A stretch of 64,000 bases of DNA. Source: Pseudomonas alcaliphila JAB1 (GTDB lineage: Bacteria; Pseudomonadota; Gammaproteobacteria; Pseudomonadales; Pseudomonadaceae). A program made the position numbers and the translations under genes. Under the pieces are notes generated by a model that did no database searches, was not told where the DNA came from, and saw nothing but the letters and a program-made list of their open reading frames with translations. The stretch lies in the NCBI RefSeq assembly GCF_001941865.1, contig NZ_CP016162.1, forward strand, positions 3,409,501 through 3,473,500. Direction: 5' to 3'. Shown here piece by piece: positions 10,828 to 23,460 of this stretch (its first letter is position 1; each line of letters starts with the position of its first letter).

Positions 10828-10904
10828 TGGCGCAGCGGACGGGACTCGAACCCGCGACCCCCGGCGTGACAGGCCGGTATTCTAACCGACTGAACTACCG
10901 CTGC
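10828..10904 (-). tRNA. tRNA-Asp (GTC), distal copy
   Basis: A 77-base tRNA with encoded CCA. The acceptor stem is GCAGCGG/CCGCTGC, the anticodon loop contains GTC and the T-arm has GGTTCGAGTCC. It appears identical to the copy at 11013-11089 and is third in the Val-Asp-Asp operon read on the minus strand. Confidence 0.97.
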
Positions 10905-11012
10905 GTGTCGGTTGGACTTTCGTCCAGAAAACTCTTTAAGCGTTACTGCATCTGATGGCGTCTTTGCGGACTCTGCCATCTCAAACCGATGAAACATCGA
11001 TCTGGGAAATAA

Positions 11013-11089
11013 TGGCGCAGCGGACGGGACTCGAACCCGCGACCCCCGGCGTGACAGGCCGGTATTCTAACCGACTGAACTACCGCTGC
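11013..11089 (-). tRNA. tRNA-Asp (GTC), proximal copy
   Basis: A 77-base tRNA with encoded CCA and GTC anticodon, matching the downstream copy. The spacer contains a repeated CTTTCGTCC-type stretch also found near the other tRNA, consistent with tandem duplication of a tRNA plus spacer unit. Confidence 0.97.
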
Positions 11090-11124
11090 GCGTCGGTGGA
11101 CTTTCGTCCTTCTCTCTAAGGCTA

Positions 11125-11200
11125 TGGTGGGTGATGACGGGATCGAACCGCCGACCCTCTGCTTGTAAGGCAGATGCTCTCCCGGCTGAGCTAATCACCC
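11125..11200 (-). tRNA. tRNA-Val (TAC)
   Basis: A 76-base tRNA with acceptor GGGTGAT/ATCACCC, discriminator A and encoded CCA. The anticodon loop CTTACAA places TAC as anticodon. It is the first gene of the tRNA operon. Confidence 0.97.
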
Positions 11201-19912: not shown

Positions 19913-20164
19913 GTGCTGATCCCCGCTGAGCTGCTGCAAGCCGACACCCTCACCGCCCTGATCGAAGACTTCGTCACCCGCGACGGTACCGATAACGGCG
20001 ATGAAACCCCGCTGGAAACCCGCGTGCAGCGCGTACGCCGCGCCCTGGACAAGGGCGAGGCGGTTATCGTCTTCGACCCTGACAGCCAGCAATGCCAACT
20101 GGCGATGAAGCGTGACGTACCCAAGGAATGGCTGGAGGCCTTGCAGCAATCGCTCAGTGATTGA
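19913..20164 (+). CDS. YheU-family protein
   Basis: An 83-residue protein starting with GTG, preceded by a GGAG site. The sequence LIPAELLQADTL...FVTRDGTDNG is typical of the UPF0270/YheU family, whose function is unknown. Its stop overlaps the convergent Tag-like gene by 11 bases. Confidence 0.85.
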   Translation: MLIPAELLQADTLTALIEDFVTRDGTDNGDETPLETRVQRVRRALDKGEAVIVFDPDSQQCQLAMKRDVPKEWLEALQQSLSD

Positions 20165-20825
20165 CCGTGTGCGCCAGCATCACCGATAGCTGACACAGCG
20201 GCCGCCCGCTCTCGGCCTGCCACTGGTTGAAGGCAGCCTGCACTGCGGCCAGGTCTTTCAGACTGGTCGGCGCCTTGTCGATCACGCCCTGCGCCTTGAG
20301 CGCGGCGACCATGTCATCGGTAGGGACGAAGGTGTCCTTGCCCACCATGCGCAGAAAGCGCGGTGCAGACAATCCACCCAGCTGGCTGCCGTGCTTGGCC
20401 AGGTATTTCCACAAGCCGACGATATCGCTTACCGGCCAATCGGCGATCAGGGTGCCGAAGCTGCCTTTTTCACGACGCACATCGAGGATGAACTGGGCAT
20501 TGCGCGGCACGCTTTTGAGCTTGCCCAGGTGGCGAATCAGCCGCGCATCCTGCATCAGGTTCTCCAGGCGCTCGGCGCCCATCAGCACCACCTTCTCCGG
20601 GTCGAAGCCGAAGAACACTTCCTCGAACGCCGGCCACTTGGCGTCCACCAGGCTGTGCTTGAGGCCGGCGCGAAAGATGCGCAGGCTGATCAGCGACAGA
20701 TAACGATCATCGCTCAGCGCCCGCAGCTCAGCATCGCTGCGCGGCTGCGGCAGCATGGCCTCCAGCGCCTTGGCCGAGCCGAAACGGTTGAGGCAGAACT
20801 CGTGCAGCCACTTGTAATCACGCAT
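20154..20825 (-). CDS. DNA-3-methyladenine glycosylase I-like protein
   Basis: A 223-residue helical protein resembling the Adenine_glyco (Tag) family, with RIFRAGLKH, QDARLIRHLGKL and VGLWKYLAKHG segments. In E. coli Tag the first segment is LEGQQAGLSW, whose Glu recognises 3-methyladenine; here that position is Arg49. The four Cys/His zinc ligands of Tag are also not evident. It is probably a divergent subfamily with altered or lost glycosylase activity. It converges on the yheU-like gene with an 11-base overlap. Confidence 0.78.
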   Translation of the reverse strand: MRDYKWLHEFCLNRFGSAKALEAMLPQPRSDAELRALSDDRYLSLISLRIFRAGLKHSLVDAKWPAFEEVFFGFDPEKVVLMGAERLENLMQDARLIRHLGKLKSVPRNAQFILDVRREKGSFGTLIADWPVSDIVGLWKYLAKHGSQLGGLSAPRFLRMVGKDTFVPTDDMVAALKAQGVIDKAPTSLKDLAAVQAAFNQWQAESGRPLCQLSVMLAHTVNH

Positions 20826-20906: not shown

Positions 20907-20959
20907 GTAGGGCGGGTGCAACCCGCCAATCCAGGACTGGCGGGTTACACCCGCCCTAC
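20907..20959. repeat. GTAGGGCGGG palindrome overlapping the DAHP synthase stop
   Basis: Arms GTAGGGCGGGTG and CACCCGCCCTAC flank an inner GGCGGGTT-type pair. The TAG stop of the DAHP synthase gene (20956-20958 on the minus strand) is the first TAG of this repeat, so the element abuts the coding end exactly. Confidence 0.78.
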
Positions 20960-22020
20960 CCGCGCAAACGCGCGGCGGCCTGACGCAGCGCAGCCTCGGT
21001 ACCGCTCCAGCCCAGGCAGCCATCGGTGATCGACACGCCATAACGCAGCTCGCCGGAAAGCGCCTGGCAACCGTCGAACAGGTGGCTCTCCAGCATCACC
21101 CCGCGCAGGCTGGCATCCCCGGCCAGGCGCTGCTCGATCACGCTCTCCAGCACCGCCGGTTGACGCAAAGGGTCCTTGCCGCTGTTGGCATGGCTGCAGT
21201 CGACCATGATGCGCGGTGCGATACCCTGACGCTGCAACGCCTCACGTGCGGCGGCGACGCTGACGGCATCGTGGTTCGGCGCGCCGTGGCCACCGCGCAG
21301 CACCAGATGGGTGTCCGGGTTGCCCGCGGTGTGCAGCAACGCCGGGTGGCCGAGATCATCGATGCCGAAATGCTGATGCGGGTGCGCCGCCGAGCGCATG
21401 GCGTCACAGGCGATGCCGACGCTGCCGTCGGTGCCGTTCTTGAAGCCCACCGGCAGATCCAGGCCGCTGACCATCTCGCGATGCACCTGCGACTCGCTGG
21501 TGCGTGCACCGATGGCCGCCCAGCCAAGCAGGTCGTCGAAGTAACCGGCGGCCATCGGCTGCAACAGCTCGGTGGCCAGCGGCAGGCCGCGAGCGAGGAT
21601 ATCCAGCATCAGTTGCCGCGACTGTCGCAAGCCTTCGGCCATGTCGCCACTGCCATCGAGATGCGGATCGTACAGCAGCCCCTTCCAGCCCACGGTGGTG
21701 CGCGGTTTCTCCACGTAGGCGCGCATCACCAGCAGCAGTTGGTCGTCGACCTGCGGGGCCAGCTCGGCCAGGCGCTCGGCGTATTCGAGGGCGCTGGTAC
21801 GGTCATGCAGGGAACAGGGGCCGACCACCACCAGCAGGCGCGAGTCGCGGCCATCGAGCACGGCGCGAATGGCGTCACGGTCAGCGGCAATACGTTCGGC
21901 AAGTGCGGCGGGCAACGGCAGGCGCTGGCGCAAGACGGCGGGGCTGGGCAGCGGCTGGGCGCTGCGGCGGGCGATGGTGGTAACGGTGGAAGCGAGTTGA
22001 GCAGAGACGGAAGCATTCAT
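20956..22020 (-). CDS. Class I 3-deoxy-7-phosphoheptulonate (DAHP) synthase
   Basis: A 354-residue AroF/G/H-type enzyme that condenses phosphoenolpyruvate and erythrose-4-phosphate at the entry to aromatic amino acid synthesis. Motifs include VVGPCSLHD (about 64-72), YVEKPRTTVGWKG (about 99-111), GFKNGTDGS (about 192-200) and MVDCSHANSGK. Allosteric specificity (Tyr, Phe or Trp) cannot be read reliably here. An AAGGAA site precedes the start. Upstream lie two aromatic-rich mini-ORFs and a terminator, suggesting attenuation. Confidence 0.93.
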   Translation of the reverse strand: MNASVSAQLASTVTTIARRSAQPLPSPAVLRQRLPLPAALAERIAADRDAIRAVLDGRDSRLLVVVGPCSLHDRTSALEYAERLAELAPQVDDQLLLVMRAYVEKPRTTVGWKGLLYDPHLDGSGDMAEGLRQSRQLMLDILARGLPLATELLQPMAAGYFDDLLGWAAIGARTSESQVHREMVSGLDLPVGFKNGTDGSVGIACDAMRSAAHPHQHFGIDDLGHPALLHTAGNPDTHLVLRGGHGAPNHDAVSVAAAREALQRQGIAPRIMVDCSHANSGKDPLRQPAVLESVIEQRLAGDASLRGVMLESHLFDGCQALSGELRYGVSITDGCLGWSGTEAALRQAAARLRG

Positions 22021-22064
22021 GATCTGGCGGTTCCTTGGCCGGCGCGGTCGATGCCGCGGCGGCG

Positions 22065-22154
22065 CTAACTGAGTGTTCGTTGCAAAGGTGTCAGGGCGGT
22101 GGTGACGCTGCTAAATCGCCAGTCGTAGCGGTAGTTGCGGTAATAACGGTTCAT
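22065..22154 (-). CDS. Putative leader peptide 2 of the DAHP synthase gene
   Basis: A 29-codon ORF with GAGGA seven bases before its ATG. Within the first 14 codons lie four Tyr, one Trp and one Phe (YYRNYRYDWRF). It lies between the terminator at 22195-22232 and the DAHP synthase start, ending 44 bases before that start. It may gate translation of the downstream gene by stalling at aromatic codons. No U-tract terminator follows it, so a purely transcriptional role is less likely. Confidence 0.6.
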   Translation of the reverse strand: MNRYYRNYRYDWRFSSVTTALTPLQRTLS

Positions 22155-22194
22155 CTGTGAGTCCTCGATCTGTGGCCGTTTTTCGGCCGGAAAA

Positions 22195-22232
22195 AACAAA
22201 ACCCCCGGTCGGGTTGCCGACCGGGGGTTTTC
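22195..22232 (-). terminator. Strong intrinsic terminator/attenuator upstream of DAHP synthase
   Basis: On the minus strand, a CCCCCGGTCGG/CCGACCGGGGG stem with a CAAC loop is followed by TTTTGTTTTTT. It begins about 53 bases after the stop of the first aromatic-rich mini-ORF and precedes the DAHP synthase transcription unit. Position and strength fit an attenuator. I could not define a convincing antiterminator pairing by eye. Confidence 0.85.
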
Positions 22233-22283
22233 TGGAAAACGTCTCTGGTGGCGACCCTGGTGTCTCAGGCCGCCTGTGGGGTA

Positions 22284-22415
22284 TCAGGCGCGCCTGTGGC
22301 TAAACCAATACCCAAAGAAATAATACGCTGCCGACACAAGCACCTGCGCACAAGCCAACGCGGCGCGCGAGGCACCGGCTTGCAACATGGACAGGAGGTT
22401 GAGGCTGACGGACAT
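22284..22415 (-). CDS. Putative leader peptide 1 of the DAHP synthase gene (aromatic codon cluster)
   Basis: A 43-codon ORF with a GGAG ribosome site six bases before the ATG. Near its end is the codon run YYFFGYWF (22302-22325), three Tyr, three Phe and one Trp in eight codons, followed by SHRRA and a stop. A strong terminator lies about 53 bases downstream. This is the classic layout of a biosynthetic attenuator leader whose ribosome pauses when charged aromatic tRNAs are scarce. A small hydrophobic membrane protein is the alternative reading. Confidence 0.65.
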   Translation of the reverse strand: MSVSLNLLSMLQAGASRAALACAQVLVSAAYYFFGYWFSHRRA

Positions 22416-22439
22416 GGAATTCTCCAAAGCGATGGCCGA

Positions 22440-22469
22440 ACCATACTCCAGGCCTTTGCGGCCTGGCAA
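22440..22469 (-). promoter_or_regulatory. Candidate promoter for the DAHP synthase leader
   Basis: On the minus strand TTGCCA (22464-22469) and TATGGT (22440-22445) are separated by 18 bases. A start near 22433 would leave a short 5' end before leader ORF 1. The spacer contains an AGGCC...GGCCT palindrome. Confidence 0.45.
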
Positions 22470-22472
22470 GCG

Positions 22473-22530
22473 TCGCGGCTAAAGCCCCTCCCACATGCGA
22501 CGCAAACCGTGGGAGGGGCTTTAGCCGCGA
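22473..22530. repeat. Palindrome CGCGGCTAAAGCCCCTCCCA, likely terminator after ttcA
   Basis: Long inverted repeat with arms CGCGGCTAAAGCCCCTCCCA and its complement. It lies between the ttcA stop and the DAHP leader promoter and probably separates the two transcripts. A half-copy is seen near 10708. Confidence 0.75.
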
Positions 22531-22534
22531 TGGC

Positions 22535-23359
22535 TTACAGGCTCATCACGTCGAGGAAGCGCGGCGTGGCGCTGTCGTCGATCTTCAGGCTCTTGAAGTC
22601 GAACAGGTTGCGGTCGGCCAGCTGCGAGGGGTGCACGTTCTGCAACGCGCGGAACATGATCTCGACGCGGCCAGGGCTCTTGCGCTCCCACTCCTGCAGC
22701 ATCTCCTTGACCACCTGACGCTGCAGGTTCTCCTGCGAACCACAGAGGTTGCACGGGATGATCGGAAACTCCTTGAGCTGGCTGTAGGCCTCGATATCGG
22801 CCTCGGCGCAGTACGCCAGCGGACGAATCACCACGTTGCGGCCGTCATCGGACAGCAGCTTGGGCGGCATGGCCTTGAGCGTGCCGCCGTAGAACATGTT
22901 GAGGAAGAAGGTTTCCAGGATGTCGTCGCGATGATGCCCCAGCGCCATCTTGGTCGCGCCGATCTCGTCGGCGTAGGTGTACAGGGTGCCACGACGCAGA
23001 CGCGAGCACAGCGAACAGGTGGTCTTGCCCTCGGGGATCTTCTCCTTGACCACCGAATAAGTGTCCTTCTCGATGATGTGGTACGCCACGCCGATGGATT
23101 CCAGGTAGGCCGGCAGCACGTGCTCGGGGAAGCCGGGCTGCTTCTGGTCCATGTTCACCGCGACGATCTCGAACTTGATCGGCGCCACCTTCTGCAGGTA
23201 CAGCAGCACGTCGAGCATGGTGTAGCTGTCCTTGCCGCCGGACAGGCAGACCATCACCTTGTCGCCATCCTCGATCATGTTGAAGTCGGTGATGGCTTCG
23301 CCGGCCAGGCGGCGAATGCGCTTCTGCAGTTTGTTCTGGTTGACCGAAAGGGTGCCCAT
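22535..23359 (-). CDS. ttcA: tRNA 2-thiocytidine(32) synthetase
   Basis: A 274-residue ATP- and Fe-S-dependent enzyme that thiolates cytidine 32 in certain tRNAs. The PP-loop is LSGGKDS (about residue 41-47). The cluster cysteines are CSLC (about 116-119) and PCNLC near 205. The start [10 protein letters not shown] (ATG at 23357-23359) is preferred over upstream in-frame ATGs because it matches the usual family N-terminus and length in Pseudomonas. It is monocistronic and divergent from the J-domain gene. Confidence 0.95.
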
Positions 23360-23460
23360 GGTGCGTCGAAATCCGAGGGAGTGGGAACGAAAGCGCGACA
23401 TTTTACGCACAATGGCGCCGCGCCCCTACCCCACCGACAACTAAATGCTAGTCTCGGCCG

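Follow-up and report, generated by a model that had tools for sequence, protein, structure and literature searches.

A candidate tandem leader-peptide control region, overlapping the P15 RNA, precedes a DAHP synthase gene in Pseudomonas

In Pseudomonas alcaliphila JAB1 a gene for 3-deoxy-D-arabino-heptulosonate 7-phosphate (DAHP) synthase is preceded by two short open reading frames (ORFs) rich in aromatic codons, ORF1 and ORF2, which lie on either side of an intrinsic terminator. The stretch analyzed, here called the window, comprises 64,000 nucleotides (nt) of NZ_CP016162.1, and all coordinates are window positions. We suggest that these ORFs are tandem leaders, with ORF1 probably gating transcription and ORF2 gating translation. 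As judged from sequence comparison, the tandem arrangement is real and deeply conserved, and a model of ORF1 as a six-segment, his-type ribosome-mediated transcription attenuator is well supported. The leader is known in part as an RNA, Pseudomonas P15, and by our literature search appears not to be known as an attenuator.

Organization of the leader region

The order on the minus strand is ttcA, a terminator-like inverted repeat, a promoter-like pair, ORF1, the terminator, ORF2, a short GC hairpin, and DAHP synthase. An earlier sequence-only reading had described a candidate promoter, a 43-codon ORF, a terminator, a 29-codon ORF and the enzyme gene, with good ribosome sites at both ORFs, and all of these elements are present. 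Its interval, 20956-22469, takes in the enzyme gene too; the leader proper spans 22021-22469. The features, from promoter to enzyme, are as follows.

22440..22469, minus strand: sigma-70-like promoter TTGCCA-18-TATGGT (9/12 consensus match; 1 found versus 0.5 expected)
22421..22425, minus strand: ORF1 ribosome site GGAGA, 5 nt 5' of the ATG
22284..22415, minus strand: ORF1, putative first leader peptide, 43 codons (ATG 22415, TGA 22284), conserved in relatives
22302..22325, minus strand: candidate ORF1 control codons YYFFGYWF, from sequence
22202..22326, minus strand: Rfam P15 (RF00627) match, 103.7 bits (gathering 70)
22305..22313, minus strand: segment 1 GGGTATTGG, from the Rfam consensus structure and one fold
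22279..22296, minus strand: segment 2, CAGGCGCGCCTG for helix 2:3 and CCTGATACCC for helix 1:2, from folding and permutation tests
22266..22276, minus strand: segment 3 CAGGCGGCCTG, from folding and permutation tests
22250..22258, minus strand: segment 4 AGGGTCGCC, predicted partner of segment 3 or, as GGGT, of terminator arm 5
22198..22231, minus strand: intrinsic terminator, segments 5:6, 15 pairs and a T-run
22162..22166, minus strand: ORF2 ribosome site GAGGA, 7 nt 5' of the ATG
22065..22154, minus strand: ORF2, putative second leader peptide, 29 codons (ATG 22154, TAG 22065), containing YYRNYRYDWRF
22110..22121, minus strand: near-invariant TGG-CGA-TTT-AGC of ORF2, from conservation
22117..22122, minus strand: CTGGCG in ORF2, complement of a stretch beside the DAHP synthase ribosome site, from pairing
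22077..22079, minus strand: second conserved in-frame CGA codon of ORF2 (166/166 loci, partly redundant)
22038..22063, minus strand: hairpin H3, between the ORF2 stop and the DAHP synthase ribosome site, from folding z-scores
22024..22036, minus strand: DAHP synthase ribosome site AAGGA with adjoining CGCCAG, from sequence and pairing
20956..22020, minus strand: DAHP synthase gene (aroFGH type), 354 amino acids (TIGR00034, 427.7 bits, cut-off 173.2)

The two strands of the window together contain 737 ORFs 15-80 codons long, among which the two leader ORFs stand out by aromatic density: ORF1, with 7 aromatic residues in 10, is alone at the top, and ORF2, with 5 in 10, is tied second. No comparable aromatic leader ORF was found within 700 nt upstream of a DAHP synthase paralog of 53% identity, where the best had 3 in 10. 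The best promoter-like pair 5' of ORF1 scores 7.02 on average in 100 related loci and 2.83 in shuffles, and scores of at least 9 are found in 12/100 loci and 7/500 shuffles. A generic scan gave 2 terminator-like sites where 1.5 are expected, which alone is not above chance; the terminator stretch overlaps the Rfam P15 match.

Both ORFs are conserved among relatives

The comparison was based on 111 sequences, namely 80 named DAHP synthase loci, the 30 best-scoring further P15 loci (L083-L112), and the window. Loci of later searches partly repeat species of the 80 named, and most Pseudomonas-type loci are fluorescens-type relatives. The label Halomonadaceae-type was inferred from Halomonas, Chromohalobacter, Cobetia, and Halotalea loci bearing the same element. 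ORF2 was located before orthologous DAHP synthases in 106 of the 111 sequences; the remaining five are four Salinicola loci in which ORF1 is present (L069, L071, L072, L074) and one truncated locus (L068). ORF1 was located by a search for TGGTTTA plus terminator, which left 11/111 without an assignment, and an in-frame ATG with a Shine-Dalgarno match of at least 3 bases (a lenient test) was found in all 100 located sequences. A second, similar search missed ORF1 in 40/221 sequences, in 38 of which some ORF lying upstream reaches 4 or more aromatic residues in 10.

The end of ORF1 (YYFFGYWFSHRRA / AAYYFFGYWFSHRRA in the window) is nearly always an aromatic run with GYWF or the variants AYWF, WYWF, and SYWF, exceptions including YGYF in L077, L210, and L212. 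The N-terminal half drifts, as expected for a leader peptide. Around the Trp codon, the preceding codon is TAT in 95 and TAC in 5 sequences, and the following codon is TTT in 100/100, partly fixed by the search pattern. Thus the loss of aromatic codons or reading frames in close relatives, which had been named as a refuting outcome, is not seen: Pseudomonas and Halomonadaceae-type loci alike retain ORF1 and ORF2.

Across the genus, the ORF1 core, terminator, and ORF2 core occur with bounded spacing in 287/396 genomes, and a reversed-pattern control gave 0 among the matches listed. ORF2 in its pseudoknot-bearing form (described below) was detected in 145/201 genomes of the Halomonadaceae-type family and in 11/293 genomes across the order, of which 4 belong to the genus of the window and 7 to the Halomonadaceae-type family. 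Because the model used (R1) was built on pseudoknot-bearing sequences, the order-wide figure speaks for that form only; R1 does not detect the ORF2 of the window itself. A second genomic TGGCGATTTASC site (L113) was rejected; it sits inside a coding region.

ORF1 as a probable transcription attenuator

The his leader provides a six-segment scheme in which the position of the translating ribosome selects between alternative helices. Ensemble folding was carried out on RNA cut just before the 3' arm of the terminator, and a ribosome was mimicked by masking all nucleotides as far as 13 nt from the first base of the A-site codon. The expected pairs in helices 2:3 / 3:4 / 4:5 of the window leader were then as follows.

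Ribosome on second Tyr: 11.0 / 0.2 / 3.2
Ribosome on Tyr before Trp: 11.0 / 0.2 / 3.3
Ribosome on Trp: 8.7 / 0.5 / 3.0
Ribosome on last Phe: 4.9 / 3.8 / 2.0
Ribosome on Ser: 0.2 / 7.9 / 0.4
Ribosome at stop: 0.0 / 8.0 / 0.6

The same switch is predicted in the Pseudomonas-type loci, where 2:3 exceeds 3:4 in 87/91 with the ribosome on Trp, in 81/91 on the Tyr before it, and in 61/91 on the second Tyr, and in none of the 91 with the ribosome on Ser or at the stop. Mean expected pairs in helix 4:5 of these loci are 3.2 on Trp versus 0.1 at the stop.

Partner permutation was applied to unique sequences in three sets (90 Pseudomonas-type, 32 Halomonadaceae-type, and all 122), drawn from 181 of 227 records, 40 being not located by the pattern of the test and 6 set aside beforehand. 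Native helix 2:3 is more stable than 2000/2000 permutations in each set, and native 3:4 beats the permutations in the 90- and 122-sequence sets. Examples of co-evolving partners are GGTGTGCC with GGCACACC, GGCGTGCC with GGCACGCC, and GGGCTGGCCTGAT with ATCAGGCGGCCC. The locus therefore presents a leader ORF with a start and ribosome site, control codons that overlap segment 1, a terminator before the gene, and a conserved 2:3 helix that is exclusive with 3:4 and predicted to be switched by ribosome position. In this way, helices that exclude one another and co-evolve give good support to the attenuation that had been proposed at ORF1.

The end of ORF1 and the terminator constitute a full-length match to Rfam P15 (RF00627), and P15 was found at E <=0.001 in 361/398 genus genomes, in 360 of them above the gathering cut-off. 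The other 37/398 have no P15 match at E <=0.001; among the 20 of these that are listed, 19 are <=5.5 Mb. Rfam files P15 as a small RNA (sRNA) gene, and PMC2375449 credits its detection to Livny et al. On these grounds P15 might be chiefly a trans-acting sRNA whose short ORF is incidental. We consider this very unlikely, given that P15 precedes the DAHP synthase gene with its ORF and alternative helices conserved, though the terminated RNA may also act in trans as a by-product; a trans role was already doubted in the available portion of Livny 2008 (PMC2527527). The same portion suggests a riboswitch, from synteny with the thiamine pyrophosphate (TPP) riboswitch. Control by a riboswitch or T-box instead of a leader peptide is more improbable still, since relatives preserve both the reading frames and their aromatic codons and neither family appears among the 15 Rfam matches at E <=1 in 21900-22540, where His_leader (23.2 bits versus 49) lies below its cut-off. 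At gathering score only P15 and three tRNAs match Rfam in the window. Among open-licence papers on leaders, P15, and PA1750, no reading of P15 or the leader as an aromatic leader-peptide attenuator was found, and in the portion consulted of the main text of a 3'-end mapping study of P. aeruginosa (PMC8297930), PA1750, aroF, and P15 are unmentioned.

ORF2 takes different forms in different clades

In fluorescens- and putida-type Pseudomonas and in Halomonadaceae-type loci, ORF2 contains a predicted H-type pseudoknot. It starts 9 nt after the Phe codon TTT of WRF, and its stems CGGTCGG/CCGACCG and GCCACC/GGTGGC are interleaved. In 48 sequences chosen by eye for diversity, 96.6% of cells are paired, versus 24-49% when the partner is slid, and 17 double-change cells were counted, versus 4.9 in shuffles (0/500). 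Cobetia-type loci lie outside this count and have both stems swapped for other complementary sequence (CCTGCCTC/GGGGCAGG, GTCACC/GGTGAC). The clade of the window lacks the pseudoknot.

A spacing of about 9 nt to a pseudoknot is usual for programmed frameshift sites, and CGA-TTT with the pseudoknot might be taken as such a site, yielding an ORF2-DAHP synthase fusion. This hardly deserves credence and was rejected because the downstream frame is not constant among loci: the distance from the ORF2 core to the enzyme start is variously 101, 108, 157, 158, or 159 nt. The absence of the pseudoknot from the window clade also speaks against it.

In the window clade, CTGGCG over the Trp-Arg codons of ORF2 would instead pair with CGCCAG, which lies between the Shine-Dalgarno sequence and the ATG of the enzyme. 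Predicted accessibility of the Shine-Dalgarno-to-ATG stretch in the window rises from 0.46 in the free RNA to 0.65 with the ribosome on the ORF2 Trp codon. This gain was matched by 0/30 spacer shuffles in 12/24 pseudoknot-free loci, the window included, and a ribosome-on-Trp effect is present in the putida-type loci L020, L027, and L067 (no shuffle control). In the window the ORF2 stop lies 44 nt before DAHP synthase, and hairpin H3 occupies the gap; H3 has z < -1 against mononucleotide shuffles in 72/73 unique Pseudomonas-type sequences.

Halomonadaceae-type loci have a different anatomy. Of 70 loci examined, 69 had an assigned enzyme start, and in 50 of these the ORF2 stop falls between -17 and +11 nt from the ATG, with a 4-nt overlap in 10. 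Direct translational coupling is the suggested meaning of ORF2 ending at the enzyme start. That ORF2 itself is translated appears likely from its ribosome site, its reading frame, these overlaps, and the ratio of nonsynonymous to synonymous polymorphism (pN/pS), which is 0.54 for the 14 codons that precede Trp in 47 unique fluorescens-type ORF2s.

It might be argued that only ORF1 regulates, and that ORF2 is a passive spacer whose translation does no more than keep Rho off the read-through transcript and deliver ribosomes to DAHP synthase. The position of ORF2 near the enzyme start in Halomonadaceae-type loci would fit, as would the Salinicola loci, which manage without ORF2, and the lack of a genus-wide single structure joining ORF2 to the enzyme ribosome site. 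However, the aromatic cluster, TGG-CGA-TTT-A, the two CGA codons, and the covarying pseudoknot are not expected in a spacer, and we regard this alternative as unlikely. The translation-level role that had been suggested for ORF2 has support from anatomy that differs between clades, through predicted ribosome-site pairing in the window clade and apparent coupling in Halomonadaceae-type loci, but not from one structure common to the genus.

Two fixed CGA codons

The TGG-CGA-TTT-A of ORF2 is nearly invariant in nucleotides, its Arg codon being CGA in 165/166 loci (partly redundant); the search pattern constrains the TTT in part, while the CGA was free (any CGN allowed). A second in-frame CGA occurs within the last 18 codons of ORF2 in all 166 of these loci. 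Elsewhere CGA makes up 5.0% of Arg codons in DAHP synthase genes and 68/674 of the other Arg codons of ORF2. The first CGA is kept in loci that have no pseudoknot, and in L196 despite loss of the Trp codon (GGG for TGG). The first ORF2 pattern failed in 16/76 Halomonadaceae-type loci, all of which retain CGATTTA when read at the model match (14 loci) or at the locus centre (L153 and L154). An alternative pairing of CGATTT with GGTGGC, given by RNAalifold, was not adopted because it would account for the invariance solely in loci that have the pseudoknot.

Tandem leaders as such offer no explanation for the two fixed CGA codons, and our guess is a codon-level pause. Bacterial CGA is typically decoded by a single inosine tRNA-Arg, according to the part of PMC11066159 that is available, and in Escherichia coli 2-thiocytidine at position 32 blocks CGA wobble (accessible part of PMC5372741). 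More tentatively, and with more doubt than confidence, we suggest that ORF2 represents a new class of translation-level leader, in which a pseudoknot, or the ribosome-site pairing in the window clade, meets the ribosome at Trp-CGA-Phe. Such a leader would sense both aromatic tRNA charging and CGA decoding (I34/s2C32 of tRNA-Arg), and ORF1 and ORF2 would then form a two-step AND gate, transcription followed by translation. The ORF2 gate, with its second CGA near the stop, would pass ribosomes to DAHP synthase or withhold them.

The gene directly upstream of the leader, at 22535-23410 on the minus strand, is ttcA, encoding a tRNA 2-thiocytidine 32 synthetase (PRK10696, 493.5 bits). A functional tie between ttcA and the leader was considered and is retained only as a lead, no conserved linkage having been seen: tblastn finds ttcA in the 1500-nt flanks of only 5/80 named loci besides the window.

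A model for the tandem leader

In the tandem-leader model, the leader transcript would start from its own promoter and carry two leader peptides in series. When charged tRNA-Tyr, tRNA-Phe, and tRNA-Trp are ample, the ribosome would get to the end of ORF1, 3:4 would form, and 5:6 would terminate transcription, leaving the short P15 RNA. Under shortage the ribosome would stall on the Tyr, Phe, or Trp codons of ORF1 and mask segment 1, so that 2 pairs with 3; segment 4, freed by 2:3, would grip terminator arm 5, allowing RNA polymerase to read through. The read-through RNA would expose ORF2. In the window clade, a ribosome delayed on YYRNYRYDWRF would presumably uncover CGCCAG and favor translation of DAHP synthase. 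In other clades the ribosome would meet the pseudoknot behind WRF or, in Halomonadaceae-type loci, the end of ORF2 at the enzyme start, with an effect of inferred sign.

Several results weigh against this model. For ORF1, the ribosome-free window leader is mixed (4.4 expected pairs in 2:3 and 5.5 in 3:4), its minimum-energy fold contains 2:3, and 12/91 Pseudomonas-type loci favor 2:3 without a ribosome. Among Halomonadaceae-type loci, native 3:4 is not favored over permuted partners (830/2000). The native pairs of the short helix 4:5 do not outperform swapped ones (-7.64 versus -7.99). The last modelled step, 4:5 holding the terminator arm, is the least supported.

For ORF2, the four Salinicola loci keep ORF1 and the terminator, and the ORF2 core was not found in them. 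The +3 slide gives more double-change cells (22) than the pseudoknot itself, at 49% paired. A ribosome on Trp does not expose the Shine-Dalgarno sequence of the window enzyme when this is taken alone (0.60 to 0.51). Shuffles equal or beat the accessibility gain in 26/30 cases at 3/24 pseudoknot-free loci (L016, L021, L030), and most fluorescens-type loci have little or no gain, so that the effect is not genus-wide. The tail of ORF2, which also bears the pseudoknot, has a pN/pS of 0.80. Finally, direct coupling implies that a stall in ORF2 could lower, not raise, enzyme synthesis.

Neighboring features

Three consecutive tRNA genes lie on the minus strand at 10831-11200. The inverted repeat after ttcA (22473-22531, GCGGCTAAAGCCCCTCCC ... 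GGGAGGGGCTTTAGCCGC) is long and resembles a terminator or repeat element. The gene 3' of DAHP synthase, at 20154-20825, resembles DNA-3-methyladenine glycosylase I only distantly (41.7 bits, cut-off 232.5), and a relative occurs in the flank of 8/80 named loci.

Significance and comparison with known leaders

If correct, this interpretation would give a function to P15, a long-filed orphan sRNA of Pseudomonas, would show how entry into the aromatic pathway is controlled in Pseudomonas and Halomonadaceae-type bacteria, and would provide a natural case of two serial leader peptides acting at two levels. The leader also allows direct tests of two questions: does a single leader with interspersed Tyr, Phe, and Trp codons respond to each of the three amino acids, and why is the rare codon CGA fixed twice in a short peptide?

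Ribosome-mediated transcription attenuation is the mode of control of the his, trp, and phe operon leaders of enteric bacteria. The present leader resembles these in having a leader ORF with cognate codons, an intrinsic terminator, and mutually exclusive helices, with six segments as in his. It differs in its mixed Tyr/Phe/Trp run, its location before a common-pathway enzyme, and its second leader ORF after the terminator. Likewise, Rfam RF00627 is matched at full length by the end of ORF1 and the terminator, and what is filed there as an sRNA gene is read here as the putative terminated product of a leader-peptide attenuator.

In erm-type translational attenuators, ribosome delay in a leader ORF frees a downstream ribosome site, much as is proposed here for ORF2 and the ribosome site of the enzyme. 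By contrast, the signal at ORF2 would be uncharged aromatic tRNA rather than a drug, and the ORF would act in series with a transcriptional attenuator. A Phe-Tyr-Phe leader peptide has been proposed before the DAHP synthase gene aroF of Corynebacterium glutamicum (accessible part of PMC4046766). This likewise places an aromatic leader peptide before DAHP synthase, in another phylum, and a second ORF is unmentioned in that part of the source. Set against these systems, what appears to be new is a transcriptional and an apparently translational leader in series, the pseudoknot form of the latter, and its fixed CGA codons.

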